Below, piece after piece: positions 6,733 through 34,275 of a DNA stretch of 64,000 nucleotides; positions within the stretch are counted from its first letter, which is position 1, and each line of letters opens with the position of its first letter. Both the position numbers and the translations under genes were made by a program. Source of the DNA: Skeletonema tropicum (Eukaryota; Bacillariophyta; Thalassiosirophyceae; Thalassiosirales; Thalassiosiraceae). The notes under the pieces are model-generated. The model was not told the origin of the DNA and did not search any database. It worked only from the letters and a program-made list of their open reading frames with translations. The DNA is taken from positions 3,931,354 to 3,995,353 of the forward strand of contig CM074133.1 in assembly GCA_037178625.1 (NCBI GenBank). Direction: 5' to 3'.

Positions 6733-8079
6733 ATGGCGTCTCAAGCCGAGAACACTCACCCAAACACAATCATCCGAGGACATTACCATACCAGTGTCCC
6801 TATCAACAATGATCAAAAGCGCCGCAAGGTCGAGGCAAACTCTAATAACATCACCGCCTACCCGTCTGCTGCCATTCATGCCACCAAGGTGAGCAAGAGG
6901 ACCAAGAGGAGGACAAATAAAAGATCAAATCAACGTAGGGAAGCAAACGTGTTTGCACCTCAAATCTTCAACCATCGTCCGGCGATTCTGCCGACAAGTA
7001 CAAAGAAGGCATCAAAGAAGAGGCGCCTCGAATCCGACCCGCCTTCTCAAGAGAAGAAGATGAGGCAGGAGCTACCCAACAACTTTACTTCCAACCAATC
7101 GGCTGTGCCAGCCCAAAAGAAGAAGAGGGCTCAGAAGAATTCACGCAACAACGACGCCCCAATCTTCCGCTACAAACATCACGGTGAAGTTGCAACACCA
7201 ACAATTGCTCCACCCACGGCCACTGCTAGCAAGGCGAAGGTCTCGAAGAAGAGGCGCTCAGATGCCCACGAATCCCCCCCGCCTGCTCAAAAGAAGAAGA
7301 TGACTGCTCCTGCCCAAAAGTTGAACACGATTGATCGCGGTCAAGTTCCATCTGCCTACCAATTTACTACCAATACTACCAACAAAGCCGCTGTTCCAGT
7401 GCAAGAGAAGAATGTGCTTCAGAATCAGCCATTCGTCAACAACGTTTCATCTATCTCTGTTCTCCATCACCGCGATGAAGTTGCCAACGGAGCCACTTCT
7501 GATTTGGAGTTTGCCTATTCCGATTCGGATTCCGATTCCGAGGAAGAACATCTTGTTGTAGGGATGACCTTGCTCCCGGATGCTGATGACGCTGCCACTG
7601 TGATCCAGGCCTTCTTCAGAGGTGCCAGCGCTCGCACGATGAAGCCAAGGGCCAGGCCACAAGCGGAGCTTAAGGTTGATTCCAATCATGGCCAAGAATG
7701 GGATGGTAATTCTGATGATGATGCAGCTCCTGACGACGACTCGGTCGAGGAAGTAGAAGTCTTCCTCGTGGTGGAAGCTGAAGAGGGTGATGAAAAAGCG
7801 GAGGAAGTTGACTTTGTCGACGCAGCAGAAGCTGTTGACGAGGGTGATGAAATAGAGGAGGAAGCTGTTGTGGACAATGATAAGCCGGCTGCAAAAATTC
7901 AGACAGCCTTCAAGCGTTATCTCGCTCGGAAAAGTGCTATCAAAGCAACGGAGCGAAGGCGAAGGGCCCAGCCACAAGCAGAGTTTGATGCTAGAGCAGT
8001 GGAAGAGGAGGTGGTGGAAGAGGAAGAGGGGAAGATATCTACTCTGCCAGAAGGAATCTTCGGAGACGGAGGATGGTGA
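6733..8079 (+). CDS. IQ-motif (calmodulin-binding) protein, copy 1, altered C-terminus
   Basis: This copy encodes 448 aa. Residues 1-200 are basic and disordered, with several Lys/Arg clusters (KRTKRR, KKASKKRR, SKKRR) resembling nuclear localisation signals. A Ser/Asp run follows near 262-272. Two IQ motifs follow: VIQAFFRGASAR near 290-301 and KIQTAFKRYLARK near 388-400, with an acidic linker between them. IQ motifs bind calmodulin or EF-hand proteins, so Ca2+-dependent regulation of a nuclear protein is inferred. A 2-nt gg insertion at about 8030 shifts the frame. The last 24 or so residues of the intact copy (Arg-rich) are replaced by a short different tail. The ATG at 6733 follows a short A-rich leader and is the same in all copies. 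Confidence 0.75.
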   Translation: MASQAENTHPNTIIRGHYHTSVPINNDQKRRKVEANSNNITAYPSAAIHATKVSKRTKRRTNKRSNQRREANVFAPQIFNHRPAILPTSTKKASKKRRLESDPPSQEKKMRQELPNNFTSNQSAVPAQKKKRAQKNSRNNDAPIFRYKHHGEVATPTIAPPTATASKAKVSKKRRSDAHESPPPAQKKKMTAPAQKLNTIDRGQVPSAYQFTTNTTNKAAVPVQEKNVLQNQPFVNNVSSISVLHHRDEVANGATSDLEFAYSDSDSDSEEEHLVVGMTLLPDADDAATVIQAFFRGASARTMKPRARPQAELKVDSNHGQEWDGNSDDDAAPDDDSVEEVEVFLVVEAEEGDEKAEEVDFVDAAEAVDEGDEIEEEAVVDNDKPAAKIQTAFKRYLARKSAIKATERRRRAQPQAEFDARAVEEEVVEEEEGKISTLPEGIFGDGGW

Positions 8080-8362: not shown

Positions 8363-8862
8363 NNNNNNNNNNNNNNNNNNNNNNNNNNNNNNNNNNNNNN
8401 NNNNNNNNNNNNNNNNNNNNNNNNNNNNNNNNNNNNNNNNNNNNNNNNNNNNNNNNNNNNNNNNNNNNNNNNNNNNNNNNNNNNNNNNNNNNNNNNNNNN
8501 NNNNNNNNNNNNNNNNNNNNNNNNNNNNNNNNNNNNNNNNNNNNNNNNNNNNNNNNNNNNNNNNNNNNNNNNNNNNNNNNNNNNNNNNNNNNNNNNNNNN
8601 NNNNNNNNNNNNNNNNNNNNNNNNNNNNNNNNNNNNNNNNNNNNNNNNNNNNNNNNNNNNNNNNNNNNNNNNNNNNNNNNNNNNNNNNNNNNNNNNNNNN
8701 NNNNNNNNNNNNNNNNNNNNNNNNNNNNNNNNNNNNNNNNNNNNNNNNNNNNNNNNNNNNNNNNNNNNNNNNNNNNNNNNNNNNNNNNNNNNNNNNNNNN
8801 NNNNNNNNNNNNNNNNNNNNNNNNNNNNNNNNNNNNNNNNNNNNNNNNNNNNNNNNNNNNNN
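8363..8862. other. Assembly gap (500 N)
   Basis: Exactly 500 N, so the size is a placeholder. The left flank ends inside the 3' block of U1, and the right flank starts inside block A of U2. The gap therefore hides a junction between near-identical tandem copies, a place where assemblers commonly fail. Confidence 0.98.
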
Positions 8863-11535: not shown

Positions 11536-12955
11536 ATGGCGTCTCAAGCCGAGAACACTCACCCAAACACAATCATCCGAGGACATTACCATACCAGTGT
11601 CCCTATCAACAATGATCAAAAGCGCCGCAAGGTCGAGGCAAACTCTAATAACATCACCGCCTACCCGTCTGCTGCCATTCATGCCACCAAGGTGAGCAAG
11701 AGGACCAAGAGGAGGACAAATAAAAGATCAAATCAACGTAGGGAAGCAAACGTGTTTGCACCTCAAATCTTCAACCATCGTCCGGCGATTCTGCCGACAA
11801 GTACAAAGAAGGCATCAAAGAAGAGGCGCCTCGAATCCGACCCGCCTTCTCAAGAGAAGAAGATGAGGCAGGAGCTACCCAACAACTTTACTTCCAACCA
11901 ATCGGCTGTGCCAGCCCAAAAGAAGAAGAGGGCTCAGAAGAATTCACGCAACAACGACGCCCCAATCTTCCGCTACAAACATCACGGTGAAGTTGCAACA
12001 CCAACAATTGCTCCACCCACGGCCACTGCTAGCAAGGCGAAGGTCTCGAAGAAGAGGCGCTCAGATGCCCACGAATCCCCCCCCGCCTGCTCAAAAGAAG
12101 AAGATGACTGCTCCTGCCCAAAAGTTGAACACGATTGATCGCGGTCAAGTTCCATCTGCCTACCAATTTACTACCAATACTACCAACAAAGCCGCTGTTC
12201 CAGTGCAAGAGAAGAATGTGCTTCAGAATCAGCCATTCGTCAACAACGTTTCATCTATCTCTGTTCTCCATCACCGCGATGAAGTTGCCAACGGAGCCAC
12301 TTCTGATTTGGAGTTTGCCTATTCCGATTCGGATTCCGATTCCGAGGAAGAACATCTTGTTGTAGGGATGACCTTGCTCCCGGATGCTGATGACGCTGCC
12401 ACTGTGATCCAGGCCTTCTTCAGAGGTGCCAGCGCTCGCACGATGAAGCCAAGGGCCAGGCCACAAGCGGAGCTTAAGGTTGATACCAATCATGGCCAAG
12501 AATGGGATGGTAATTCTGATGATGATGCAGCTCCTGACGACGACTCGGTCGAGGAAGTAGAAGTCTTCCTCGTGGTGGAAGCTGAAGAGGGTGATGAAAA
12601 AGCGGAGGAAGTTGACTTTGTCGACGCAGCAGAAGCTGTTGACGAGGGTGATGAAATAGAGGAGGAAGCTGTTGTGGACAATGATAAGCCGGCTGCAAAA
12701 ATTCAGACAGCCTTCAAGCGTTATCTCGCTCGGAAAAGTGCTATCAAAGCAACGGAGCGAAGGCGAAGGGCCCAGCCACAAGCAGAGTTTGATGCTAGAG
12801 CAGTGGAAGAGGAGGTGGTGGAAGAGGAAGAGGAAGATATCTACTCTGCCAGAAGGAATATTCGGAGACGGAGGATGGTGAAGGAGCTACAGTGCACTTT
12901 GGACGGCTGGTACTGGACTCGAAGAACACAAAGAAGGAAGATAAGGAGAGATTGA
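11536..12955 (+). pseudogene. IQ-motif protein gene, copy 2, broken by a poly-C expansion
   Basis: The reading frame starts as in the other copies but stops at 12138. A run of seven C in the intact gene has become eight at about 12077-12084, so residues after about 180 are shifted. The original frame reopens downstream and runs to 12955 with both IQ motifs and the Arg-rich C-terminus intact. A homopolymer error in sequencing would give the same picture. A Ser-to-Thr change near residue 317 is the only obvious substitution in the region I compared. Confidence 0.8.
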
Positions 12956-15981: not shown

Positions 15982-16875
15982 ATGGCAGCCGACACCGCTA
16001 CCAACTGCACCCTGGGAACAGGGTACGACAACACTATAATGTATAATAACCATATGAATGGCTCCTTAAAAACGAGACTTACTACGGCAAAAAAGTACGC
16101 ATCAATTGACACTACACTCATATTGTTTGGGAAGGGCGGCGGCAGGGCCATGTGGCCGGCCGGTTGCAACATCAAACAGGAATGGTGTTTTGGAGATATC
16201 GGAGGAATGAGGGACGGATTACGGGATGGACGACTCTGCCGGTCAATGGACACAACGCAGGGATGGACGACTTTTAATCTCATGGATGGAGAGGAGGGAA
16301 ACTGGAACAACAATTGGGTTGTGACACAATCGGTTGAGAAACAAGGCTTGAAGATGAGGAGGGAGGAAGCAGTCCAACAACTTACTGCCAACAATCTACT
16401 ACATCAAAAAGGTGCAATCCCAGCCCCCCCACCTAAACCACCTTGGCCCCCACCTTGGCATGATGAAGAACCTATATCGGAGCAAATTTGCATGGAAGAC
16501 GCGGCACTTGTACGCCACAAATATAATTGGAGATGTACACAACAAAGTAGACCCTTTGTCGCTCTTTCACATAACAACAACACTTCTGGCTATTGTCCTT
16601 TTAGCGTTGTGAATTGGATGACGTCTACAGTCGAAGTTGTGCTACAAAATCATAACAACAGTGACAATATTTTGGAAAATGGCAATACGTATTGCGGTGA
16701 AGATTCGGATGTGTGTAGCATCTACACCAAATTTATTCTACACAATCGCGGTAGTGAATCATTCCTTGTTAGATTGGTATCTAATGACTGCGTCGACGTC
16801 TCGGTCTCACAAGCCGAGGCAGCTCTCTCCCAGGCCCCTCCAGCTGATATAGGTGTTGTGGGGCCCATGGTGTAA
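15982..16875 (+). CDS. Retrotransposon ORF1 protein, 297 aa
   Basis: ORF1 proteins of non-LTR elements usually bind the element RNA. I cannot recognise a zinc knuckle, RRM or coiled coil here, so the assignment rests on position. The protein has a Gly-rich N-terminal half, a proline-rich stretch near residues 145-160 (APPPKPPWPPPW), and an Asn/Ser-rich C-terminal half with several scattered cysteines. Its stop codon TAA shares its last base with the ORF2 start, giving TAATG. That is a known coupling arrangement for ORF1/ORF2 of some non-LTR elements. The start ATG at 15982 is the first in frame, 95 bp into the element-specific sequence. Confidence 0.5.
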   Translation: MAADTATNCTLGTGYDNTIMYNNHMNGSLKTRLTTAKKYASIDTTLILFGKGGGRAMWPAGCNIKQEWCFGDIGGMRDGLRDGRLCRSMDTTQGWTTFNLMDGEEGNWNNNWVVTQSVEKQGLKMRREEAVQQLTANNLLHQKGAIPAPPPKPPWPPPWHDEEPISEQICMEDAALVRHKYNWRCTQQSRPFVALSHNNNTSGYCPFSVVNWMTSTVEVVLQNHNNSDNILENGNTYCGEDSDVCSIYTKFILHNRGSESFLVRLVSNDCVDVSVSQAEAALSQAPPADIGVVGPMV

Positions 16876-16877
16876 TG
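16873..16877 (+). promoter_or_regulatory. TAATG stop/start overlap between ORF1 and ORF2
   Basis: The ORF1 stop TAA and the ORF2 start ATG overlap by one base. In the insect telomeric element SART1, UAAUG drives ORF2 translation by termination-reinitiation. The same mechanism is inferred here. Confidence 0.6.
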
Positions 16878-19664
16878 GATAATGGGCAGCCTCTACGGTA
16901 TTTTGCCCGATACCCCGAGGTGAGCCAATCCATTCAAGAGAGGCAACGTAAGCAACAACCTCGCCGCAGTACCTCCAATCAGAAGAAATCGGCCCGGCGT
17001 GCACAACAGTACCGACTCTCGAATACACGCAACCACGTCAAATTTAGAGGGAGGTACAGCAGCGAAAAGAATAATACAAGTGATAAGTTAGATGCAGATA
17101 CGATGAGGCAGCTCATAGCAAATAGGCAGCGTTGGTGCGATGATCCGTCAGCAAAGGACCTCAATGAACTGCTTGATGATTATAGGCACAAAGAGAGGGA
17201 GAAACAAGATAGAACCTCCTCGACGAAAGAACTCCGTCCACTTGGCCAGACAGTGGAGAATACGATTGTGCCTATTTACGGGAACTTGAGGGTGGAGGAG
17301 AAGGGCAGTGATGTAGTTCGAATAATGTCGTTGAATATCAACGGGCTCAGTCTGTGGAAGCACAACAACCACAAGGTAGATAGACTCAAGCACGTCCTGC
17401 GGACGTATGGTGTGGATGTTCTGGGGCTCCAGGAGACCAACACCAACTTCCACCATCTAAAATCATCAGTGACGGTAGCCTCGATGCTAAGACATGGAGA
17501 TGACAGAATCAAATCAGTACATTCTCAGAACACTCGGGAACTTCAGAACATTGGTAATGTTCAAGCGGGGGGGACAGCAGTTGTGATTAGAGACGAGTTG
17601 TCGGGCTTACCCATGACCTGCGGTAAAGATTCCACTGAGCTGGGAATGTTCAGCTGGTATAGGACGGAGCCGGTCAATGGCGTGAGAACAGTCTTCTTAA
17701 GTGCCTACGCGCCCTGTAAATCAGAAGGGGTTGGTACATACTATCAACATATTGAGAGATACATCCAATCGCACCAGCTGAAGACCAACCCCAAGGATCT
17801 GTTCCGGAGACACATTGTCGATGCCATCAAACGGTGGCGCAGCAAAGGCGACAGGGTTGTTCTGATGATGGATGCTAATGAGAATGTGTTGGACGGAGTC
17901 CTCAGTAAACGACTTGCAGAGGATGATATCCGCATGAGGGAAGCAGTGCACCGTATGGTCCCCGGCAGAAGAGGTCCTGCTACACATTTTCGAGGCAACA
18001 GCCAAAAGAATGGGGCCATAGACGGTATTTGGATCTCGGATGACGTTGAACTAACTGGAGCCAGCTACTTACCGTTCGACGGTGATTTGGGAGATCACCG
18101 GCCAGTGGTTGTCGACCTACAGATGCGGTCGGTTATTGGCACTTCTATCTGTCGTATTGTGCCACCGAAGGCTAGAAAGCTTAACTCCAAGGTGCCGCGG
18201 ATTAGAGTGAAGTACCTTGCACAATTAAAAAAAGGCTTCACAGATAGACGCATCCCCCAGAAGCTCAAAGAAGTAAATAGGATAGCCTCATTCCCGCCCT
18301 CGGCTGAAGTGGTGTCCAAGATGGAAATCCTGGACAACATGATTGAAGAGGAGATGCTACACGCAGAGGCGAAATGCAGAGTGATTTACCCGGCGCATTA
18401 TGAGTTCTCTCCAGCAATACAATCGTGGATGGATAAATGCCACCTCCTGAAATGGATACTACGACATCACCGAGGAAAAAAGGTCAATTGGGGCAATTTG
18501 AGAAGATTCGCCAGGCGCAAAGGAATGGAGGACTGTCTTCGGTACCCTGTCGATGAAGTGGTTCAGCTGTACAAGGAGACCAAAAAACGCACACGAGAAC
18601 TCATGGCTGAATCACCTTACCTCAGAAAGCATTTTTTACACGAGAAGTTGACCGATGCTGTGATAAATGAACGTGTTGATGAAGCCAAGCGGGTGGAGCT
18701 GATCCTCAAAGGGGAGGCTCAGAGAAAACAGTGGCAGGGTATTAAACGAGCAACAAAGCAGCAAGGAGTGATGAATGTTACAAGAGTGGAAGTTACACAA
18801 GCAGACGGGAAAGTGGTCGAGCACGCAACAAAAGAATCGATTGAAGAGGCACTGAAGTCAGAACTCCGCACAAGGTTTGGAAGGGCTACTTCTGCCCCAG
18901 TTTGCCAAGGGGTACTATTCGACCTCCTGGGAGTCTACGCCGACACGAATGCAGCGGTAGAAATACTTGAAGGATCCTTCGCCCCTCCCCCAGACACAGA
19001 TCAACGCACAATACTGATACTGGACGAAATAGCAGCCATCTGGAAAAAGATTGGCGATGGTGAGATTTCCGTTGTCGTTTCACAGGAGGACTACCAATAT
19101 TACTGGAGGAAAGTGAAAGAAAGAACGTCATCCTCGATATCGGGACTGCATTTTGGTCACTATAAGTCGATAGCTTTCGATGACGACCTGTCCAGGTTGC
19201 TAGCAAAGAAGTTCTCTCTTATGATCCAAACAGGAACCGGCCCAGAACGTTGGGCTCGGGGTCTGTCGGTAATGCTCGAGAAGATTGCAGGTGCACTGTC
19301 GATGCTCCGCCCCTTGCATAATATGGAGTTTTTCCTAAGAACTGGTTTTGGCCAATCTTCTTCATATTTTGGTGGGAAAGAGGACGGGAAACACGGTCTC
19401 GCTCAAGGGAACGGTGCAGCTCCACCGACATGGCAACAGATCAGCACGGTCATGATTAATACCCACAAAACTAATGGGCATGGAGTGGAAGTGAAGTGTC
19501 CAATCTCACATAAAAAGATTAATCAGGTGGGAATTCTGTATGTTGATGATACCAATTTGTGGGAAGGTCTTAGACTGACGATGACATTATCTCGACAAGT
19601 GCTAGAGGGCAAGAGTCAATCTCGGATTGGGCAGGTGCCTTGGGGGAAACGGGTGGCGCTTTGA
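16875..19664 (+). CDS. Retrotransposon ORF2: APE-type endonuclease plus reverse transcriptase, defective
   Basis: The 929 readable residues start with a basic, Gln/Arg-rich leader. An endonuclease/exonuclease/phosphatase domain spans about 148-415, with its expected catalytic set: LNINGL (Asn154), LGLQETN (Glu187), MDANEN (Asp333, Asn335), AIDGIW (Asp383) and GDHRP (Asp407, His408). The endonuclease would nick target DNA for target-primed reverse transcription. The RT domain begins near 740; SGLHFGHYKS (about 757) and the YVDD catalytic core (889-892) are present. Between LEKIAG and MEFFLRTGFGQ (about 803-825) the sequence is far too short. The block carrying motif A with the first catalytic Asp, normally over 100 residues, is missing although the frame stays open. 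After NLWEGL the frame shifts near 19615-19622. The RT is therefore very probably inactive. Confidence 0.8.
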   Translation: MDNGQPLRYFARYPEVSQSIQERQRKQQPRRSTSNQKKSARRAQQYRLSNTRNHVKFRGRYSSEKNNTSDKLDADTMRQLIANRQRWCDDPSAKDLNELLDDYRHKEREKQDRTSSTKELRPLGQTVENTIVPIYGNLRVEEKGSDVVRIMSLNINGLSLWKHNNHKVDRLKHVLRTYGVDVLGLQETNTNFHHLKSSVTVASMLRHGDDRIKSVHSQNTRELQNIGNVQAGGTAVVIRDELSGLPMTCGKDSTELGMFSWYRTEPVNGVRTVFLSAYAPCKSEGVGTYYQHIERYIQSHQLKTNPKDLFRRHIVDAIKRWRSKGDRVVLMMDANENVLDGVLSKRLAEDDIRMREAVHRMVPGRRGPATHFRGNSQKNGAIDGIWISDDVELTGASYLPFDGDLGDHRPVVVDLQMRSVIGTSICRIVPPKARKLNSKVPRIRVKYLAQLKKGFTDRRIPQKLKEVNRIASFPPSAEVVSKMEILDNMIEEEMLHAEAKCRVIYPAHYEFSPAIQSWMDKCHLLKWILRHHRGKKVNWGNLRRFARRKGMEDCLRYPVDEVVQLYKETKKRTRELMAESPYLRKHFLHEKLTDAVINERVDEAKRVELILKGEAQRKQWQGIKRATKQQGVMNVTRVEVTQADGKVVEHATKESIEEALKSELRTRFGRATSAPVCQGVLFDLLGVYADTNAAVEILEGSFAPPPDTDQRTILILDEIAAIWKKIGDGEISVVVSQEDYQYYWRKVKERTSSSISGLHFGHYKSIAFDDDLSRLLAKKFSLMIQTGTGPERWARGLSVMLEKIAGALSMLRPLHNMEFFLRTGFGQSSSYFGGKEDGKHGLAQGNGAAPPTWQQISTVMINTHKTNGHGVEVKCPISHKKINQVGILYVDDTNLWEGLRLTMTLSRQVLEGKSQSRIGQVPWGKRVAL

Positions 19665-20263
19665 AACCAGACAAATGTGGAGTTACAATACACGATCAAA
19701 CACCCGATGGAAAGGGCGGCTGGTGTTACACGGATCAAAAAGCGATGCCCTCAGACGGCGAAGAGGTTGACATGAGTGAACTGGATGACTTGATTTTCCA
19801 CGTCCCCACTACTGACGGGGGCTCTGCGCAAATAGATAGGTTGCCATCGAATAAAGCTGACAACAACTTAGGTCTCTACGCTAGACCGGATGGGAAACCA
19901 GACCAGCACTTCGAGCAGATGAGAGAAAAAATGACAACGTGGACGGCTCAGATTAAGAGCGGGCAAATACCAACTCGTTCGGTGTGGATGAGCTACACCA
20001 ATCAGCTATGGTCTGGACTCAGGTACGGTCTGGGGGCCTGTTCGGCGTCAATCCCTGAGCTCAAAAAAGGATTGATGTCAGCAGATTTCTATATGTTAAG
20101 CAACCTAGGTGTCAACCGATCAATTACCAAGGAATGGAGATACCTGCCGGCCACGTTTGGTGGAATCGGTCTCTACGACTTGACGGTGGAAACTGCGGCT
20201 GTGGATATATCAAGTGCCACTTTAAAAGTACCAATAACGCTAGAAGAATCTTTATCAATGTGA
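19622..20263 (+). pseudogene. ORF2 C-terminal part, out of frame with the RT core
   Basis: This frame continues the reverse transcriptase protein with the thumb-type block SDWAGALGETGGALKPDKCG. It then has a C-terminal region including WSGLRYGLGACSASI and LPATFGGIGLYDL, patterns typical of this RT group. A single-base change around 19615-19622 separates it from the YVDD-containing frame. No RNase H domain or zinc finger is evident, and it ends at a TGA at 20263. Confidence 0.7.
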
Positions 20264-20343
20264 AAAGAAATGTCTTGAATGCAATAAGCCACGAAGTCCT
20301 TATTACAAGTTAGGTTAGGAGTTTTTCCAGATGATGGTAGTAA

Positions 20344-20424
20344 GCAATATAACCGAACTCTTTATGATTCATTAATTACGAGTTTCGGTGGAGCTTAGCC
20401 ACCTTCATCAGCGGTTCTAATTGC
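20344..20424 (-). ncRNA. Hammerhead-type ribozyme fold (type I topology)
   Basis: Read on the minus strand, the order is as follows. Stem I 5' strand: gcaat, a small internal loop, aaccg (20424-20412). Core CTGATGA (20411-20405), then one extra A (20404). Stem II: ggtgg/ccacc with loop ctaagct. Core GAAA (20386-20383). Stem III: actc/gagt with a 19-nt AT-rich loop. Then a T as nucleotide 17, and the stem I 3' strand cggtt, loop, attgc (20355-20344). Every core element and all three stems fall in the correct order, and stem I has the internal loop common in natural type I ribozymes. Predicted cleavage is between 20356 and 20355. The extra A between CTGATGA and stem II deviates from consensus, and GUU is a less usual cleavage triplet, so activity is uncertain. 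It is antisense to the retrotransposon ORFs. Confidence 0.6.
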
Positions 20425-20580
20425 GTGGAGCAGGGCACATAAAAGAATGCGTGGAGACAGGCCACAAAAAATTTGAATCAATAAGTCTCAAGAATGAGAA
20501 AAGGCGTGGCATCTGTCATTTCTGACAGTCATAAGTTTTGTTGGCATATCGTGGGCGTGGGCCAGCGTACAAGGCATATC

Positions 20581-20642
20581 TTTTCCATCGGGGAGATCCA
20601 AAGTAGCGTAGCTACCTACTTTGGATCCTCCCGATGGAAAAG
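20581..20642. repeat. Long hairpin, 26-bp arms with 2 mismatches
   Basis: ttttccatcgggg-agatccaaagtag on the left pairs with ctactttggatcctcccgatggaaaa on the right around a 9-nt loop. The loop itself contains the palindrome gtagctac. The element is non-coding. It may be a MITE relic or a 3' structure of the upstream element. Confidence 0.8.
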
Positions 20643-21384
20643 AAGGGGAGGATGGTTTGGCTACCTCTCGGGGGGTAGAAATGATGATACCTTCCTCCCC
20701 TTAAACTTGTCTAACTTACGGTACGATAGGAGATTCCCAAGGTTAAGGTGGCGGCTGTAGCAAACTGTCATCTTGTCCGTGGGGAAAGTGGCTTTCTCAC
20801 ATCGGATACTCGTGGGGTGATTTGCCCATCGGTTGTACCATGTGTTTTTGCCACAATTCTTGCCAATGTTTCGCACGGGGGTCCTACTGGTGGTAAGGAA
20901 TATGAAAGTAGATCGAGTCTCTCTTTCCTTTGACGGTAGGCTTGGACTTGGAAGCTGTCGTGGAGTAGTTGGCAATTTATACTTCAGCATTAGTAATGGC
21001 TTTGTCGAAGAGAGGCAGGAGGTTGGCTGGTTGGTGACCTCTGCTGATGTGTCAATGGTAGAAGTTGAAGATATGGCCATCGGCGTCGTCTCTGTCGGAG
21101 CAAAGCTAAATGGATACGAAGAACGCCTCCCATAATAAGGCCTTTCTCCAGCTTCTGGTAATGATTGCACTGCATCTGGATCGGAGCATCGGATTGCCGT
21201 TTACCAACAACTTAACAGAACCAAGCCTGACATTGCTTTGTGCAGTGGAAGTTGTCCATTTCATCAGAAGAGTGTCATCATTGGACAGCTTCGGCTTTGG
21301 CTTGACGAGCGCAGACTGGGCTAGACTGGGGCTTCTGACAATAGATAGCGCTCCCTACTCCCTGCTCCCTACTCGCTATGGACT
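20643..21384. other. No gene recognised; transition to a diverged paralogue of the 3' block
   Basis: Open frames of 60-170 codons occur on both strands but none shows a recognisable domain. From about 21130 the sequence begins to resemble 14440-14760: ctccagcttctggt, then tccattccct, then the gcaggcccatcgagttcgcc motif. It marks the left edge of the paralogous locus that contains the tandem array. Confidence 0.6.
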
Positions 21385-21525
21385 CCATTCCCTGGCAATC
21401 GACCTACTCATATACCTACACGCAGGCCCATCGAGTTCGCCATTTTAGCATTGCATTGTGCATTGTTCATTCACTGCGCTGATCTCTAGATAAACCCTTC
21501 TTGTCAACACGCACAAATTATTGCA

Positions 21526-21951
21526 ATGCATCCGCCGACAACATGTTCGTCCTACTCATCTCAGGCTAAGGCTCTTCTCGATCACACGGTTGCGACAACT
21601 GCAACAACCAAAAGCCCGCACCCGCAGCGAAATGATAAAAGTGATATGGATATGGCCGGCAGTTCTCCAAATAATGTCTCGCGCTCCTCTCCACAACTAC
21701 ACAGCGTTGATGTGAAACCAAATAATTATCAAACGAGTCAACAGCAGCAGCAGCAACAACAACAACAACATCTGACGAATAACAATCATCATTATATATC
21801 ACGCAATGCTACAAAAATCATCAAGGGTGAAATTCATAACGTTTGTCTCACCATGCAATCTGATCCTCGCTATTATATAAGTAGAAGTACTTCGAACAAC
21901 TCCTCTTCCGATGGAGGTGATACAGCAGCAATGATGAGAAGAAGTCGATAG
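21526..21951 (+). CDS. Array protein unit 1, poly-Gln/Asn-Ser-rich, 141 aa
   Basis: I do not recognise the family. Residues 1-60 are Ser/Thr-rich (SSYSSQA, TVATTATTKS). They are followed by VDVKPNNY, a pure Gln run of eight to nine near 74-82, and an Asn/His cluster. The C-terminal half is short and basic to neutral (ISRNATKIIKGEIHNVCLT, then SSSDGGDTAAMMRRSR). There is no membrane segment, and the whole looks intrinsically disordered. Differences among the units inside the ORF are mostly multiples of three, which is compatible with coding, but about six of 14 units are broken. Upstream of the ATG every unit carries the same sequence of about 140 bp, possibly a promoter. This unit reads QAKALL instead of QAQALL. 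Confidence 0.45.
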   Translation: MHPPTTCSSYSSQAKALLDHTVATTATTKSPHPQRNDKSDMDMAGSSPNNVSRSSPQLHSVDVKPNNYQTSQQQQQQQQQQHLTNNNHHYISRNATKIIKGEIHNVCLTMQSDPRYYISRSTSNNSSSDGGDTAAMMRRSR

Positions 21952-22112
21952 ATTCGAATATGAAGATTGTCACCCTCCATTCCCTGGCAATCGACCTACT
22001 CATATACCTACACGCAGGCCCATCGAGTTCGCCATTTTAGCATTGCATTGTGCATTGTTCATTCACTGCGCTGATCTCTAGATAAACCCTTCTTGTCAAC
22101 ACGCACAAATTA

Positions 22113-22541
22113 TTGCAATGCATCCGCCGACAACATGTTCGTCCTACTCATCTCAGGCTCAGGCTCTTCTCGATCACACGGTTGCGACAACTGCAACAAT
22201 CAAAAGCCCCGCAGCGAAATGATAAAAGTGATATGGATATGGCCGGCAGTTCTCCAAATGATGTCTCGCGCTCCTCTCCACAACTACACAGCGTTGATGT
22301 GAAACCAAATAATTATAATTATCAAACGAGTCAACAGCAGCAGCAACAACAACAACAACATCTGACGAATAACAATCATCATTATATATCACGCAATGCT
22401 ACAAAAATCATCAAGGGTGAAATTCATAACGTTTGTCTCACCATGCAATCTGATCCTCGCTATTATATAAGTAGAAGTACTTCGAACAACTCCTCTTCCG
22501 ATGGAGGTGATACAGCAGCAATGATGAGAAGAAGTCGATAG
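22113..22541 (+). pseudogene. Array protein unit 2, frame-shifted
   Basis: An extra C in agccccgcagcg shifts the frame. An upstream ATG at 22113 in another frame reads through into the normal middle and C-terminal parts, giving 142 codons with an unrelated N-terminus. Confidence 0.45.
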
Positions 22542-22707
22542 ATTCGAATATGAAGATTGTCACCCTCCATTCCCTGGCAATCGACCTACTCATATACCTA
22601 CACGCAGGCCCATCGAGTTCGCCATTTTAGCATTGCATTGTGCATTGTTCATTCACTGCGCTGATCTCTAGATAAACCCTTCTTGTCAACACGCACAAAT
22701 TATTGCA

Positions 22708-23133
22708 ATGCATCCGCCGACAACATGTTCGTCCTACTCATCTCAGGCTCAGGCTCTTCTCGATCACACGGTTGCGACAACTGCAACAACCAAAAGCCCG
22801 CACCCGCAGCGAAATGATAAAAGTGATATGGATATGGCCGGCAGTTCTCCAAATAATGTCTCGCGCTCCTCTCCACAACTACACAGCGTTGATGTGAAAC
22901 CAAATAATTATCAAACGAGTCAACAGCAGCAGCAACAACAACAACAACAACATCTGACGAATAACAATCATCATTATATATCACGCAATGCTACAAAAAT
23001 CATCAAGGGTGAAATTCATAACGTTTGTCTCACCATGCGATCTGATCCTCGCTATTATATAAGTAGAAGTACTTCGAACAACTCCTCTTCCGATGGAGGT
23101 GATACAGCAGCAATGATGAGAAGAAGTCGATAG
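22708..23133 (+). CDS. Array protein unit 3, 141 aa
   Basis: Intact. Short NNYQTS form with nine Gln, and MRSDP instead of MQSDP. Confidence 0.45.
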   Translation: MHPPTTCSSYSSQAQALLDHTVATTATTKSPHPQRNDKSDMDMAGSSPNNVSRSSPQLHSVDVKPNNYQTSQQQQQQQQQQHLTNNNHHYISRNATKIIKGEIHNVCLTMRSDPRYYISRSTSNNSSSDGGDTAAMMRRSR

Positions 23134-23299
23134 ATTCGAATATGAAGATTGTCACCCTCCATTCCCTGGCAATCGACCTACTCATATACCTACACGCAGG
23201 CCCATCGAGTTCGCCATTTTAGCATTGCATTGTGCATTGTTCATTCACTGCGCTGATCTCTAGATAAACCCTTCTTGTCAACACGCACAAATTATTGCA

Positions 23300-23728
23300 A
23301 TGCATCCGCCGACAACATGTTCGTCCTACTCATCTCAGGCTCAGGCTCTTCTCGATCACACGGTTGCGACAACTGCAACAACCAAAAGCCCGCACCCGCA
23401 GCGAAATGATAAAAGTGATATGGATATGGCCGGCAGTTCTCCAAATAATGTCTCGCGCTCCTCTCCACAACTACACAGCGTTGATGTGAAACCAAATAAT
23501 TATAATTATCAAACGAGTCAACAGCAGCAGCAACAACAACAACAACATCTGACGAATAACAATCATCATTATATATCACGCAATGCTACAAAAATCATCA
23601 AGGGTGAAATTCATAACGTTTGTCTCACCATGCGATCTGATCCTCGCTATTATATAAGTAGAAGTACTTCGAACAACTCCTCTTCCGATGGAGGTGATAC
23701 AGCAGCAATGATGAGAAGAAGTCGATAG
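23300..23728 (+). CDS. Array protein unit 4, 142 aa
   Basis: Intact. Long NNYNYQTS form and MRSDP. Confidence 0.45.
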   Translation: MHPPTTCSSYSSQAQALLDHTVATTATTKSPHPQRNDKSDMDMAGSSPNNVSRSSPQLHSVDVKPNNYNYQTSQQQQQQQQQHLTNNNHHYISRNATKIIKGEIHNVCLTMRSDPRYYISRSTSNNSSSDGGDTAAMMRRSR

Positions 23729-23894
23729 ATTCGAATATGAAGATTGTCACCCTCCATTCCCTGGCAATCGACCTACTCATATACCTACACGCAGGCCCAT
23801 CGAGTTCGCCATTTTAGCATTGCATTGTGCATTGTTCATTCACTGCGCTGATCTCTAGATAAACCCTTCTTGTCAACACGCACAAATTATTGCA

Positions 23895-24248
23895 ATGCAT
23901 CCGCCGACAACATGTTCGTCCTACTCATCTCAGGCTCAGGCTCTTCTCGATCACACGGTTGCGACAACTGCAACAATCAAAAGCCCGCAGCGAAATGATA
24001 AAAGTGATATGGATATGGCCGGCAGTTCTCCAAATAATGTCTCGCGCTCCTCTCCACAACTACACAGCGTTGATGTGAAACCAAATAATTATAATTATCA
24101 AACGAGTCAACAGCAGCAGCAACAACAACAACAACATCTGACGAATAACAATCATCATTATATATCACGCAATGCTACAAAAATCATCAAGGGTGAAATT
24201 CATAACGTTTGTCTCACCATGCGATCTGATCCTCGCTATTATATATAA
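23895..24248 (+). pseudogene. Array protein unit 5, truncated at 117 aa
   Basis: Short-linker type (SPQRND). A TA insertion in the tattatataag stretch brings a stop after DPRYYI and removes the last 23 or so residues. Confidence 0.45.
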
Positions 24249-24485
24249 GTAGAAGTACTTCGAACAACTCCTCTTCCGATGGAGGTGATACAGCAGCAAT
24301 GATGAGAAGAAGTCGATAGATTCGAATATGAAGATTGTCACCCTCCATTCCCTGGCAATCGACCTACTCATATACCTACACGCAGGCCCATCGAGTTCGC
24401 CATTTTAGCATTGCATTGTGCATTGTTCATTCACTGCGCTGATCTCTAGATAAACCCTTCTTGTCAACACGCACAAATTATTGCA

Positions 24486-24827
24486 ATGCATCCGCCGACA
24501 ACATGTTCGTCCTACTCATCTCAGGCTCAGGCTCTTCTCGATCACACGGTTGCGACAACTGCAACAACCAAAAGCCCGCACCCGCAGCGAAATGATAAAA
24601 GTGATATGGATATGGCCGGCAGTTCTCCAAATAATGTCTCGCGCTCCTCTCCACAACTACACAGCGTTGATGTGAAACCAAATAATTATAATTATCAAAC
24701 GAGTCAACAGCAGCAGCAACAACAACAACAACATCTGACGAATAACAATCATCATTATATATCACGCAATGCTACAAAAATCATCAAGGGTGAAATTCAT
24801 AACGTTTGTCTCACCATGCGAATCTGA
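24486..24827 (+). pseudogene. Array protein unit 6, truncated at 113 aa
   Basis: One extra A (atgcgaatctg) shifts the frame right after CLTMR. Confidence 0.45.
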
Positions 24828-25081
24828 TCCTCGCTATTATATAAGTAGAAGTACTTCGAACAACTCCTCTTCCGATGGAGGTGATACAGCAGCAATGATG
24901 AGAAGAAGTCGATAGATTCGAATATGAAGATTGTCACCCTCCATTCCCTGGCAATCGACCTACTCATATACCTACACGCAGGCCCATCGAGTTCGCCATT
25001 TTAGCATTGCATTGTGCATTGTTCATTCACTGCGCTGATCTCTAGATAAACCCTTCTTGTCAACACGCACAAATTATTGCA

Positions 25082-25206
25082 ATGCATCCGCCGACAACAT
25101 GTTCGTCCTACTCATCTCAGGCTCCGGCTCTTCTCGATCACACGGTTGCGACAACTGCAACAACCAAAAGCCCGCACCCGCAGCGAAATGATAAAAGTGA
25201 TATGAT
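25082..25206 (+). pseudogene. Array protein unit 7, deletion remnant
   Basis: Only the first 40 or so codons remain. The sequence jumps from gtgatatg to the atatacctacacgcagg region of the next unit, the mark of an unequal exchange or deletion at the short shared atat tract. Confidence 0.6.
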
Positions 25207-25320
25207 ATACCTACACGCAGGCCCATCGAGTTCGCCATTTTAGCATTGCATTGTGCATTGTTCATTCACTGCGCTGATCTCTAGATAAACCCTTCTTGTC
25301 AACACGCACAAATTATTGCA

Positions 25321-25677
25321 ATGCATCCGCCGACAACATGTTCGTCCTACTCATCTCAGGCTCAGGCTCTTCTCGATCACACGGTTGCGACAACTGCAAC
25401 AACCAAAAGCCCGCACCCGCAGCGAAATGATAAAAGTGATATGGATATGGCCGGCAGTTCTCCAAATAATGTCTCGCGCTCCTCTCCACAACTACACAGC
25501 GTTGATGTGAAACCAAATAATTATCAAACGAGTCAACAGCAGCAGCAACAACAACAACAACATCTGACGAATAACAATCATCATTATATATCACGCAATG
25601 CTACAAAAATCATCAAGGGTGAAATTCATAACGTTTGTCTCACCATGCGATCTGATCCTCGCTATATATATAAGTAG
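25321..25677 (+). pseudogene. Array protein unit 8, truncated at 118 aa
   Basis: The tattatataag tract reads tatatatataag here, which leads to an early stop after DPRY. Confidence 0.45.
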
Positions 25678-25910
25678 AAGTACTTCGAACAACTCCTCTT
25701 CCGATGGAGGTGATACAGCAGCAATGATGAGAAGAAGTCGATAGATTCGAATATGAAGATTGTCACCCTCCATTCCCTGGCAATCGACCTACTCATATAC
25801 CTACACGCAGGCCCATCGAGTTCGCCATTTTAGCATTGCATTGTGCATTGTTCATTCACTGCGCTGATCTCTAGATAAACCCTTCTTGTCAACACGCACA
25901 AATTATTGCA

Positions 25911-26339
25911 ATGCATCCGCCGACAACATGTTCGTCCTACTCATCTCAGGCTCAGGCTCTTCTCGATCACACGGTTGCGACAACTGCAACAACCAAAAGC
26001 CCGCACCCGCAGCGAAATGATAAAAGTGATATGGATATGGCCGGCAGTTCTCCAAATAATGTCTCGCGCTCCTCTCCACAACTACACAGCGTTGATGTGA
26101 AACCAAATAATTATAATTATCAAACGAGTCAACAGCAGCAGCAACAACAACAACAACATCTGACGAATAACAATCATCATTATATATCACGCAATGCTAC
26201 AAAAATCATCAAGGGTGAAATTCATAACGTTTGTCTCACCATGCAATCTGATCCTCGCTATTATATAAGTAGAAGTACTTCGAACAACTCCTCTTCCGAT
26301 GGAGGTGATACAGCAGCAATGATGAGAAGAAGTCGATAG
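25911..26339 (+). CDS. Array protein unit 9, 142 aa
   Basis: Intact. Long NNYNYQTS form and MQSDP. Confidence 0.45.
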   Translation: MHPPTTCSSYSSQAQALLDHTVATTATTKSPHPQRNDKSDMDMAGSSPNNVSRSSPQLHSVDVKPNNYNYQTSQQQQQQQQQHLTNNNHHYISRNATKIIKGEIHNVCLTMQSDPRYYISRSTSNNSSSDGGDTAAMMRRSR

Positions 26340-26505
26340 ATTCGAATATGAAGATTGTCACCCTCCATTCCCTGGCAATCGACCTACTCATATACCTACA
26401 CGCAGGCCCATCGAGTTCGCCATTTTAGCATTGCATTGTGCATTGTTCATTCACTGCGCTGATCTCTAGATAAACCCTTCTTGTCAACACGCACAAATTA
26501 TTGCA

Positions 26506-26928
26506 ATGCATCCGCCGACAACATGTTCGTCCTACTCATCTCAGGCTCAGGCTCTTCTCGATCACACGGTTGCGACAACTGCAACAATCAAAAGCCCGCA
26601 GCGAAATGATAAAAGTGATATGGATATGGCCGGCAGTTCTCCAAATGATGTCTCGCGCTCCTCTCCACAACTACACAGCGTTGATGTGAAACCAAATAAT
26701 TATAATTATCAAACGAGTCAACAGCAGCAGCAACAACAACAACAACATCTGACGAATAACAATCATCATTATATATCACGCAATGCTACAAAAATCATCA
26801 AGGGTGAAATTCATAACGTTTGTCTCACCATGCAATCTGATCCTCGCTATTATATAAGTAGAAGTACTTCGAACAACTCCTCTTCCGATGGAGGTGATAC
26901 AGCAGCAATGATGAGAAGAAGTCGATAG
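26506..26928 (+). CDS. Array protein unit 10, 140 aa
   Basis: Intact short-linker type with SPNDVS instead of SPNNVS, a variant shared with unit 2. Confidence 0.45.
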   Translation: MHPPTTCSSYSSQAQALLDHTVATTATIKSPQRNDKSDMDMAGSSPNDVSRSSPQLHSVDVKPNNYNYQTSQQQQQQQQQHLTNNNHHYISRNATKIIKGEIHNVCLTMQSDPRYYISRSTSNNSSSDGGDTAAMMRRSR

Positions 26929-27094
26929 ATTCGAATATGAAGATTGTCACCCTCCATTCCCTGGCAATCGACCTACTCATATACCTACACGCAGGCCCAT
27001 CGAGTTCGCCATTTTAGCATTGCATTGTGCATTGTTCATTCACTGCGCTGATCTCTAGATAAACCCTTCTTGTCAACACGCACAAATTATTGCA

Positions 27095-27523
27095 ATGCAT
27101 CCGCCGACAACATGTTCGTCCTACTCATCTCAGGCTCAGGCTCTTCTCGATCACACGGTTGCGACAACTGCAACAACCAAAAGCCCGCACCCGCAGCGAA
27201 ATGATAAAAGTGATATGGATATGGCCGGCAGTTCTCCAAATAATGTCTCGCGCTCCTCTCCACAACTACACAGCGTTGATGTGAAACCAAATAATTATAA
27301 TTATCAAACGAGTCAACAGCAGCAGCAACAACAACAACAACATCTGACGAATAACAATCATCATTATATATCACGCAATGCTACAAAAATCATCAAGGGT
27401 GAAATTCATAACGTTTGTCTCACCATGCGATCTGATCCTCGCTATTATATAAGTAGAAGTACTTCGAACAACTCCTCTTCCGATGGAGGTGATACAGCAG
27501 CAATGATGAGAAGAAGTCGATAG
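27095..27523 (+). CDS. Array protein unit 11, 142 aa
   Basis: Intact; same predicted protein as unit 4. Confidence 0.45.
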   Translation: MHPPTTCSSYSSQAQALLDHTVATTATTKSPHPQRNDKSDMDMAGSSPNNVSRSSPQLHSVDVKPNNYNYQTSQQQQQQQQQHLTNNNHHYISRNATKIIKGEIHNVCLTMRSDPRYYISRSTSNNSSSDGGDTAAMMRRSR

Positions 27524-27689
27524 ATTCGAATATGAAGATTGTCACCCTCCATTCCCTGGCAATCGACCTACTCATATACCTACACGCAGGCCCATCGAGT
27601 TCGCCATTTTAGCATTGCATTGTGCATTGTTCATTCACTGCGCTGATCTCTAGATAAACCCTTCTTGTCAACACGCACAAATTATTGCA

Positions 27690-28112
27690 ATGCATCCGCC
27701 GACAACATGTTCGTCCTACTCATCTCAGGCTCAGGCTCTTCTCGATCACACGGTTGCGACAACTGCAACAATCAAAAGCCCGCAGCGAAATGATAAAAGT
27801 GATATGGATATGGCCGGCAGTTCTCCAAATAATGTCTCGCGCTCCTCTCCACAACTACACAGCGTTGATGTGAAACCAAATAATTATAATTATCAAACGA
27901 GTCAACAGCAGCAGCAACAACAACAACAACATCTGACGAATAACAATCATCATTATATATCACGCAATGCTACAAAAATCATCAAGGGTGAAATTCATAA
28001 CGTTTGTCTCACCATGCGATCTGATCCTCGCTATTATATAAGTAGAAGTACTTCGAACAACTCCTCTTCCGATGGAGGTGATACAGCAGCAATGATGAGA
28101 AGAAGTCGATAG
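27690..28112 (+). CDS. Array protein unit 12, 140 aa
   Basis: Intact short-linker type with SPNNVS and MRSDP. Confidence 0.45.
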   Translation: MHPPTTCSSYSSQAQALLDHTVATTATIKSPQRNDKSDMDMAGSSPNNVSRSSPQLHSVDVKPNNYNYQTSQQQQQQQQQHLTNNNHHYISRNATKIIKGEIHNVCLTMRSDPRYYISRSTSNNSSSDGGDTAAMMRRSR

Positions 28113-28278
28113 ATTCGAATATGAAGATTGTCACCCTCCATTCCCTGGCAATCGACCTACTCATATACCTACACGCAGGCCCATCGAGTTCGCCATTTTA
28201 GCATTGCATTGTGCATTGTTCATTCACTGCGCTGATCTCTAGATAAACCCTTCTTGTCAACACGCACAAATTATTGCA

Positions 28279-28710
28279 ATGCATCCGCCGACAACATGTT
28301 CGTCCTACTCATCTCAGGCTCAGGCTCTTCTCGATCACACGGTTGCGACAACTGCAACAACCAAAAGCCCGCACCCGCAGCGAAATGATAAAAGTGATAT
28401 GGATATGGCCGGCAGTTCTCCAAATAATGTCTCGCGCTCCTCTCCACAACTACACAGCGTTGATGTGAAACCAAATAATTATAATTATCAAACGAGTCAA
28501 CAGCAGCAGCAACAACAACAACAACAACATCTGACGAATAACAATCATCATTATATATCACGCAATGCTACAAAAATCATCAAGGGTGAAATTCATAACG
28601 TTTGTCTCACCATGCAATCTGATCCTCGCTATTATATAAGTAGAAGTACTTCGAACAACTCCTCTTCCGATGGAGGTGATACAGCAGCAATGATGAGAAG
28701 AAGTCGATAG
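28279..28710 (+). CDS. Array protein unit 13, 143 aa
   Basis: Intact and the longest version, with one more Gln than most. Confidence 0.45.
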   Translation: MHPPTTCSSYSSQAQALLDHTVATTATTKSPHPQRNDKSDMDMAGSSPNNVSRSSPQLHSVDVKPNNYNYQTSQQQQQQQQQQHLTNNNHHYISRNATKIIKGEIHNVCLTMQSDPRYYISRSTSNNSSSDGGDTAAMMRRSR

Positions 28711-28877
28711 ATTCGAATATGAAGATTGTCACCCTCCATTCCCTGGCAATCGACCTACTCATATACCTACACGCAGGCCCATCGAGTTCGCCATTTTAGC
28801 ATTGCATTGTGCATTGTTCATTCACTGCGCTGATCTCTAGATAAACCCTTCTTGTCAACTACGCACAAATTATTGCA

Positions 28878-29159
28878 ATGCATCCGCCGACAACATGTTC
28901 GTCCTACTCATCTCAGGCTCAGGCTCTTCTCGATCACACGGTTGCGACAACTGCAACAACCAAAAGCCCGCACCCGCAGCGAAATGATAAAAGTGATATG
29001 GATATGGCCGGCAGTTCTCCAAATAATGTCTCGCGCTCCTCTCCACAACTACACAGCGTTGATGTGAAACCAAATAATTATAATTATCAAACGAGTCAAC
29101 AGCAGCAGCAACAACAACAACAACAACATCTGATGAATAACAATCAACATTGTACCTAA
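28878..29159 (+). pseudogene. Array protein unit 14, C-terminus replaced
   Basis: The frame is normal through the Gln run (HLMNNNQH) and then meets unrelated sequence and a stop at 29159. Sequence matching the normal unit end resumes at about 29219, with two substitutions. Confidence 0.5.
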
Positions 29160-29335
29160 GCAGGTCCAGATTATACTCGTGTAGATATCTAATCTGATTA
29201 ATTTTGTATTTATTTATCGATCTGATCCTCGCTATTATATAAGTAGAAGTACTCCGAACAACCCCTCTTCCGATGGAGGTGATACAGCAGCAATGATGAG
29301 AAGAAGTCGATAGATTCGAATATGAAGATTGTCAC

Positions 29336-29910
29336 CTGTATATTAGTGAGATTACGAAATTTACATGATTCGTTTAGTGTTATGGAAGTGGATGGCATCT
29401 TTTCCTTGTCGAGCAATACTGCTGTTCTTCAGGATCATCTCAATTTTTTGTCTTCCAAGCTCCACGCCGCTCTTGTGTGAAAGCACAAGAATAGACACTC
29501 ACGTTGATCTCTCTTTTGGTAATGAACGAAGGAATTCACCACACAACTGGCCGCTGGCCGCAGTGCTTGGAAAGATATGAGGACATCTCTCAATAACAAC
29601 ATCATCGTTTGGATTCTTCTCCGTTGTCTTCTTCTTATTCCTTTGAAGATATCAAACCAAATGGGCAATCTCTGCTTTGCTCGACGAAACTCTACTTCTT
29701 TAACTCAAGCTCAAGACGAAGCTTGACACGAGGTCAGCCGTGGGGCAAGTCACTCAAGTGATGTGATGGCTTAACTTACTATTTCGGCAGACCTGGCGCA
29801 ATCTTAACTTACCTTGATATAGAAGCTCAACATTGCCCCAGAGAGCTAGCTGAATTGATTGTGTTTGGCACAATAATTCTTGTGTGAGCTGTGCCACAAT
29901 TCTTGAGCAA
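29336..29910. other. No gene recognised; right edge of array locus
   Basis: It contains a diverged copy of the dispersed module at 29475-29583 with an inserted ggccgct repeat. After that comes single-copy sequence with no convincing frame. The module's position mirrors that of 15194-15302 in the segmental duplication, which supports paralogy of the two loci. Confidence 0.6.
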
Positions 29911-32856: not shown

Positions 32857-34275
32857 ATGGCGTCTCAAGCCGAGAACACTCACCCAAACACAATCATCCG
32901 AGGACATTACCATACCAGTGTCCCTATCAACAATGATCAAAAGCGCCGCAAGGTCGAGGCAAACTCTAATAACATCACCGCCTACCCGTCTGCTGCCATT
33001 CATGCCACCAAGGTGAGCAAGAGGACCAAGAGGAGGACAAATAAAAGATCAAATCAACGTAGGGAAGCAAACGTGTTTGCACCTCAAATCTTCAACCATC
33101 GTCCGGCGATTCTGCCGACAAGTACAAAAAAGGCATCAAAGAAGAGGCGCCTCGAATCCGACCCGCCTTCTCAAGAGAAGAAGATGAGGCAGGAGCTACC
33201 CAACAACTTTACTTCCAACCAATCGGCTGTGCCAGCCCAAAAGAAGAAGAGGGCTCAGAAGAATTCACGCAACAACGACGCCCCAATCTTCCGCTACAAA
33301 CATCACGGTGAAGTTGCAACACCAACAATTGCTCCACCCACGGCCACTGCTAGCAAGGCGAAGGTCTCGAAGAAGAGGCGCTCAGATGCCCACGAATCCC
33401 CCCCGCCTGCTCAAAAGAAGAAGATGACTGCTCCTGCCCAAAAGTTGAACACGATTGATCGCGGTCAAGTTCCATCTGCCTACCAATTTACTACCAATAC
33501 TACCAACAAAGCCGCTGTTCCAGTGCAAGAGAAGAATGTGCTTCAGAATCAGCCATTCGTCAACAACGTTTCATCTATCTCTGTTCTCCATCACCGCGAT
33601 GAAGTTGCCAACGGAGCCACTTCTGATTTGGAGTTTGCCTATTCCGATTCGGATTCCGATTCCGAGGAAGAACATCTTGTTGTAGGGATGACCTTGCTCC
33701 CGGATGCTGATGACGCTGCCACTGTGATCCAGGCCTTCTTCAGAGGTGCCAGCGCTCGCACGATGAAGCCAAGGGCCAGGCCACAAGCGGAGCTTAAGGT
33801 TGATTCCAATCATGGCCAAGAATGGGATGGTAATTCTGATGATGATGCAGCTCCTGACGACGACTCGGTCGAGGAAGTAGAAGTCTTCCTCGTGGTGGAA
33901 GCTGAAGAGGGTGATGAAAAAGCGGAGGAAGTTGACTTTGTCGACGCAGCAGAAGCTGTTGACGAGGGTGATGAAATAGAGGAGGAAGCTGTTGTGGACA
34001 ATGATAAGCCGGCTGCAAAAATTCAGACAGCCTTCAAGCGTTATCTCGCTCGGAAAAGTGCTATCAAAGCAACGGAGCGAAGGCGAAGGGCCCAGCCACA
34101 AGCAGAGTTTGATGCTAGAGCAGTGGAAGAGGAGATGGTGGAAGAGGAAGAGGAAGATATCTACTCTGCCAGAAGGAATCTTCGGAGACGGAGGATGGTG
34201 AAGGAGCTACAGTGCACTTTGGACGGCTGGTACTGGACTCGAAGAACACAAAGAAGGAAGATAAGGAGAGATTGA
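32857..34275 (+). CDS. IQ-motif (calmodulin-binding) protein, intact copy, 472 aa
   Basis: This is the only full-length copy. Basic clusters at about 29-32, 55-69, 91-98, 109-134 and 170-175 suggest a nuclear or nucleic-acid-binding protein. A Ser-Asp repeat lies near 262-272. IQ motif 1 is centred on Ile291-Gln292 (Arg296, Gly297, Arg301) and IQ motif 2 on Ile389-Gln390 (Arg395, Arg399). A Glu/Asp-rich linker separates them. The C-terminus is Arg-rich (RRNLRRRRMVKEL) and ends TQRRKIRRD. IQ motifs bind calmodulin. The target process is unknown and no enzyme domain is seen. Compared with the other copies it has a Val-to-Met change near 427. No intron is needed. Confidence 0.8.
   Translation: MASQAENTHPNTIIRGHYHTSVPINNDQKRRKVEANSNNITAYPSAAIHATKVSKRTKRRTNKRSNQRREANVFAPQIFNHRPAILPTSTKKASKKRRLESDPPSQEKKMRQELPNNFTSNQSAVPAQKKKRAQKNSRNNDAPIFRYKHHGEVATPTIAPPTATASKAKVSKKRRSDAHESPPPAQKKKMTAPAQKLNTIDRGQVPSAYQFTTNTTNKAAVPVQEKNVLQNQPFVNNVSSISVLHHRDEVANGATSDLEFAYSDSDSDSEEEHLVVGMTLLPDADDAATVIQAFFRGASARTMKPRARPQAELKVDSNHGQEWDGNSDDDAAPDDDSVEEVEVFLVVEAEEGDEKAEEVDFVDAAEAVDEGDEIEEEAVVDNDKPAAKIQTAFKRYLARKSAIKATERRRRAQPQAEFDARAVEEEMVEEEEEDIYSARRNLRRRRMVKELQCTLDGWYWTRRTQRRKIRRD

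Follow-up and report, generated by a model that had tools for sequence, protein, structure and literature searches.

We propose that a genuine hammerhead motif of the diatom Skeletonema tropicum was captured, within a small module, by a non-autonomous Helitron transposon, that the element has multiplied it as passenger cargo, and that its RNA would cleave itself when transcribed. The proposal is drawn from sequence comparison, and we put its probability at somewhat over one half (about 0.55). The motif was found in a window, meaning here the whole stretch of 64,000 nucleotides that was analyzed, which lies at the end of contig C7. The preliminary description of the window had presumed that the DNA came from an alga, and nine silicon-transporter matches in the genome (best E value, 2.7e-245) are those of a diatom.

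The hammerhead layout in the window

Direct reading of the minus strand from position 20424 to position 20344 confirmed a genuine type I hammerhead layout of 81 nt. The 5′ side of stem I (20424 to 20412) is made of GCAAT (20424 to 20420), the internal-loop segment TAG (20419 to 20417), and AACCG (20416 to 20412), and it pairs with the 3′ side (20355 to 20344), made of CGGTT (20355 to 20351), AT, and ATTGC (20348 to 20344). The core CTGATGA (20411 to 20405) is followed by an extra A (20404) between A9 and G10.1, by stem II (20403 to 20387), in which GGTGG (20403 to 20399) pairs with CCACC (20391 to 20387) across the 7-nt loop CTAAGCT, and by the core GAAA (20386 to 20383), the final A of which opens stem III. 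Stem III (20383 to 20357), read from the sequence and from the variants among its copies, pairs ACTC with GAGT around a 19-nt loop, and hammerhead geometry predicts cleavage between T20356 (position 17) and C20355. Stem I is open and is split by its internal loop into 5 plus 5 bp, stem II has 5 bp, and stem III has 4 bp; all 19 of the 19 pairs are Watson-Crick, and their order and register are those of type I. The cleavage triplet is GUU, position H17 is U, and every core letter of a hammerhead is present, with the one A added after A9. Moreover, the TAG/AT internal loop of stem I and the CTAAGCT loop of stem II sit where the tertiary contact between stems I and II belongs. The preliminary description had reported both core motifs and three stems in this order and register, and our rereading reproduced its coordinates to the base.

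The expected number of such layouts was calculated under a null model, a first-order Markov chain estimated from the window. The descriptor comprised CTGANGA, zero or one extra nucleotide, and a 5-bp stem II with a loop of 3 to 12 nt, followed by GAAA, a 4-bp stem III with a loop of 3 to 25 nt, H, and a 5-bp stem I. With the outer half of stem I (5 bp) left uncounted, the null predicted 3.3e-12 layouts per position, 5.2e-4 per 78.4-Mb genome, and 4.3e-7 per window on both strands, the last of which upholds the earlier statement that three stems around both core motifs were unlikely to arise by chance. Because the descriptor was written after the motif had been seen and because other motifs could have been noticed instead, these figures understate chance, but we doubt that an after-the-fact descriptor explains so small an expectation. 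The window contains 70 CTGANGA cores (45 and 25 on the two strands), only one of which, that of the motif described here, completes the layout.

Searches for a second, different hammerhead gave little. A looser descriptor, applied to the fetched DNA (481,891 bases with some overlap, 18 viral contigs included), found none. When IMG/VR was queried, a close pattern retrieved 0 contigs and a loose core pattern retrieved 18, with 0 of the 18 completing the layout. Across the genome, the pattern CTGATGAGN{8,20}CGAAAC occurred at 17 places versus 5 in the reversed control, and among those 17 strings stem II reached 4 bp in one (with a 2-nt loop) and 1 to 3 bp in the others. The pattern CTGATGAN{8,26}CGAAAC occurred at 174 places versus 93 in the reversed control, an excess of 81 that is smaller than the 103 known copies of the motif. 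A covariance-model search, which the preliminary description had proposed as a check, left the motif below threshold: Rfam returned no match at the gathering cut-off for the window and no hammerhead family at an E value of ≤10 for the stretch from 20344 to 20424, and genome-wide searches with Hammerhead_1 and Hammerhead_3 (RF00163 and RF00008) did not report the window motif. RF00163 returned one other place, at an E value of 2.98 and 19 bits, below the cut-off. The gathering cut-off is a curator's test and supplies no biochemical definition of a hammerhead.

Copies of the motif and the repeats that carry them

The motif recurs at other repeats, as the preliminary description had suggested looking for. 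Its 37-nt core was found at 103 places in the genome when up to three mismatches were allowed (0 in the reversed control), and the 100 of 103 places listed all had 0 mismatches. We read 100 copies, namely, 99 that were fetched and that of the window, leaving out C60:38402 and two unlisted places; long flanks were obtained for nine family B and 11 family A copies, and the remainder were read as 1-kb pieces. Each locus read held a single core. The carrier was a Helitron, here called family B, for 88 of the 100 copies and a second repeat, here called family A, for the other 12, which include the copy in the window.

Seven complete copies of family B measured 3,906 to 3,930 bp and ran from AACAGGGGCGCGCAGAATGG to GGGGGCCCCGAGGGCCGA. 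Both ends are more numerous than the motif, the 5′ end occurring at 203 genome places with up to two mismatches and the 3′ end at 337 with up to one mismatch. At least 10 of 67 Helitron_like_N matches had the family B 3′ end on the same strand, 4,247 to 4,250 bp beyond the match, and at least five of those 10 also had the 5′ end, 19.8 to 25.4 kb upstream of the 3′ end (on C3, C6 twice, C10, and C11). One of these gene-bearing Helitrons, L113, was read over its 3′ part, which matched DUF6570 (7.4e-22), Helitron_like_N (8.3e-21), and PIF1 (7.3e-17), and its last 1.6 kb was 98.8% identical to positions 2304 to 3911 of family B. The open reading frames of family B itself held nothing beyond a remnant of the helicase end. 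A 3′ hairpin, GGCCC-CGA-GGGCC, lies 2 nt short of the family B terminus. The 5′ end was visible in 70 copies; their left flanks were of 53 distinct kinds and ended in TA in 68 of the 70, and the right flank began with T in 5 of 7 copies. We identify family B as a non-autonomous Helitron that has its termini in common with Helitron_like_N elements. Elsewhere in the window, the minus strand from 44004 to 50213 encodes a 2,069-amino-acid open reading frame with DUF6570, a weak Helitron_like_N match, and a PIF1 helicase, apparently from a second and different Helitron family.

Copy comparison delimited a 377-bp module (20247 to 20623, unstranded) that is 88% identical to its counterpart in family B. 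In the window the module is held by a family A segment (20201 to 21413, unstranded) that starts abruptly at a junction with a LINE and matches positions 3767 to 4979 of another family A copy, L010. The 11 other family A copies (L009 to L019) have about 1 to 5 kb in common around the module, and a satellite of about 595 bp, which follows the module in the window, is present in 8 of those 11 as well. Six of the 12 family A copies are no more than 50 kb from the end of a contig, and the others are hundreds of kilobases away. Beside the window copy, the ~595-bp unit forms an array from 21383 to 29336. At the module edge is a near-perfect 65-bp palindrome (20579 to 20643), one half of which alone is kept in family B. 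A separate 13-kb tandem array with a period of about 30/92 bp, possibly a subtelomeric satellite, extends from 50884 to 63997, nearly to the contig end.

The preliminary description had placed the motif antisense to a LINE, and this tie did not survive the comparison of copies. A LINE-like retrotransposon does occupy the plus strand from 15982 to 20200, as judged from Pfam and homologues, with outer limits estimated from the open reading frames and from the junction with the family A repeat at 20201. Its open reading frame from 16875 to 19664 has an Exo_endo_phos domain, and about 100 reverse transcriptase residues present in a 1,589-amino-acid relative are missing, such that the window LINE is a broken copy. 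A LINE match (at least 60 nt, E ≤ 1e-5) was found in 0 of the 20 copies, other than that of the window, for which long flanks were available (11 of family A and nine of family B), and we therefore reject the LINE as owner of the motif and regard its position in the window as an accident of the locus. Apart from these repeats, the window holds three plus-strand open reading frames with IQ motifs (6733 to 8079, 11987 to 12955, and 32857 to 34275), two of which have the motif at the same residue positions and which apparently represent a duplicated gene family, and two runs of exactly 500 N (8363 to 8862 and 42462 to 42961), which are gaps or withheld stretches.

Activity, decay, or chance

In a thermodynamic model without tertiary contacts, the catalytic layout had an energy of −15.8 kcal/mol versus a minimum of −16.9 kcal/mol for a different fold, a gap of 1.1 kcal/mol. 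A fold at −16.7 kcal/mol contained all 19 pairs and one extra pair that takes up the cleavage-site U, and for that reason it is other than the catalytic form. In the ensemble, the pairs of stem II and of the inner part of stem I had probabilities of 0.17 to 0.23, those of the outer part of stem I had 0.35 to 0.53, and three stem III pairs out of four reached 0.96. The fold z-score against shuffled sequences was an unremarkable −1.34. The model suggests that the hammerhead fold is available, though not dominant, in the window RNA.

The extra A was named at the outset as the main weakness of the motif. The insertion is indeed present, but a natural hammerhead that cleaves has the same one. According to a review of chrysanthemum viroids, the plus-strand hammerhead of chrysanthemum chlorotic mottle viroid (CChMVd) contains one more A (A10), inserted between A9 and G10.1; A10 moderately lowers the rate of cleavage in trans, and both strands self-cleave (PMC3705267). 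By analogy, the extra A need not be fatal to cleavage in the window motif. Core insertions at other places can cripple hammerheads (PMC3088659).

The alternative that survives best is that the motif is a dead relic, descended from a working hammerhead of an earlier element and since deprived of cleavage, with the sameness of its copies reflecting a young Helitron burst; we consider this unlikely while giving it real weight. In its favor are the extra A, the GUU triplet, the 19-nt loop of stem III, and the silence of the Rfam models, and some hammerhead-like RNAs with altered cores are reported to be inactive (PMC3088659). The copies bear on the point in several ways. Over the 81 nt, 73 of the 100 are identical, 5 differ by T6A, in the internal loop of stem I, and 22 are of one form with a 1-nt loss that removes the fourth stem III pair and leaves the hammerhead fold 4 kcal/mol above the minimum. 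Covariation, the lack of which among genomic copies the preliminary description had named as a refutation, was not seen: the 100 copies present just three sequence forms and no compensatory stem change, and the 22-copy form breaks a stem III pair, although we attribute the lack of covariation to the copies being too alike. A burst would also account for family B, in which the sequence around the motif matches that of the reference copy at 96 to 100% identity in 86 of 88 copies.

Conservation of the motif relative to its flanks speaks on both sides of the relic question. In family A (11 copies, the window being dropped), substitutions affected 0 of 81 motif positions versus 13 of 579 positions outside, 11 of the 13 in a single copy. 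In family B (84 of 88 copies, with L033, L042, L078, and L085 set aside as partially aligned or more divergent), they affected 1 of 81 motif positions versus 19 of 579 outside. The difference was significant in neither family, as a relic would predict. Against a relic, representatives of families A and B were identical across the 81 nt, whereas the remainder of the roughly 400 nt aligned with it had 23 substitutions, several of which lie at doubtful alignment edges; and the extra A that might have condemned the motif is compatible with cleavage in the viroid (PMC3705267). The identity of the two families over the 81 nt is compatible with constraint and is not proof of it. Moreover, copies were picked by an exact core, and the invariance of the core is thus partly a product of how they were picked. 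The 5′ flank of the motif was counted at 107 places and the 3′ flank at 156, of which 38 are in a tandem array on C5 and 118 are outside it. Because the flank counts outside the array (107 and 118) exceed the 103 cores, the core must be missing or altered in some copies; the 3′ flank is present without a listed core at C5:3090359 and C7:646872.

A chance resemblance is improbable; in this reading the hammerhead layout would have arisen by accident on the strand opposite a degenerate coding or repeat sequence. In its favor are the missing covariance support and two features of the module. The first is a 60-codon plus-strand open frame that, in the Helitron copies, overlaps the module in part, but the frame matched no Pfam family above the cut-off, its best PDB match had an E value of 0.35, and no protein homologue of matching length was found among candidates of about 165 to 525 amino acids. 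The second is the C5 array (C5:311,416 to 379,432; period near 1.78 kb), 38 units of which contain the 34-nt 3′ flank of the motif, such that the module is partly a piece of another repeat and hence a mosaic. None of the 100 cores listed (of 103) and none of the 100 5′ flanks listed (of 107) falls in the array, which also has no match to an exact loose hammerhead pattern, for which the listing on C5 is complete. Against chance of either origin stands the genome-wide expectation of 5.2e-4, in which the outer stem does not figure.

Least probable of all is the form of the capture reading in which the hammerhead itself serves the RNA life of the Helitron by processing antisense or read-through transcripts. 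The position of the core speaks for it: in all 70 family B copies whose 5′ end is visible, which have 53 distinct left flanks, the core starts 387 to 407 bp from that end. Passive cargo, however, predicts a fixed position as well, the motif runs antisense to the genes of the Helitron, and of the 100 cores listed (103 were counted) none lies inside five coordinate-delimited gene-bearing Helitron spans.

We return to a hammerhead carried as passive cargo. A module of a few hundred base pairs containing the hammerhead would have been picked up by the Helitron, presumably in that direction, and the Helitron would multiply it with no role for the hammerhead in transposition. The module would likewise have come to reside in the second, satellite-linked repeat, the site of the window copy, which a broken LINE happens to abut. 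A minus-strand transcript, antisense to the Helitron genes, would fold into the three stems if it were made, and the RNA would cleave between U20356 and C20355 to leave a 2′,3′-cyclic phosphate and a 5′-OH. The extra A and the GUU triplet would probably make cleavage slower than that of a consensus hammerhead.

Relation to known hammerheads and Helitrons

The hammerhead motif class itself is known. In the literature consulted, genomic hammerheads are described on retroelements, satellites, phages, and viroid-like RNAs or in gene introns and untranslated ends. The closest likeness is to metazoan non-LTR retrozymes and Penelope-like elements, which also combine an open stem I, a CUGAUGA...GAAA core, and a many-copy repeat as carrier (PMC7229834 and PMC6155905) and likewise place a stem I internal loop and a stem II loop at the sites of tertiary contact. 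Unlike those elements, the main carrier here is a Helitron, a DNA transposon, with one motif per element; in the motif, stem III has 4 bp and a loop of 19 nt, the core has an extra nucleotide, and the triplet is GUU. Plant LTR retrozymes resemble family B in that the hammerhead rides on non-autonomous mobile DNA, whereas in those retrozymes each LTR has a hammerhead and a circular RNA serves as intermediate (PMC4918198). An LTR retrozyme was rejected as the carrier, there being no direct repeat of at least 60 bp in the Helitron copy L021 or in the family A stretch L010 1 to 4979 and one core per locus read. With the CChMVd plus-strand hammerhead the motif has in common the A inserted between A9 and G10.1 (PMC3705267), the one being in viroid RNA and the other in genomic repeat DNA.

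Non-autonomous Helitrons that carry captured sequence form a recognized class, and family B resembles its members in that its termini are common to gene-bearing elements and its 3′ 1.6 kb to L113; it differs in that the cargo includes a hammerhead motif. A word search of open-licence literature, mostly of titles and the beginnings of abstracts, found no report of a hammerhead in a Helitron, and a word search of the same literature found none in a diatom. We know of no earlier ribozyme-bearing Helitron or diatom hammerhead.

The fullest version of the case is that a Helitron with a working hammerhead, its A10 inserted, processes transcripts antisense to the transposon at about ninety loci of this diatom; judged from sequence, that version as a whole is doubtful. 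If it is true, it would give the first ribozyme-bearing Helitron and the first diatom hammerhead known to us, and the motif would provide a hammerhead of natural, cellular origin whose core has one nucleotide inserted. DNA transposition would then be another route by which self-cleaving RNAs spread, in this genome to about ninety places.
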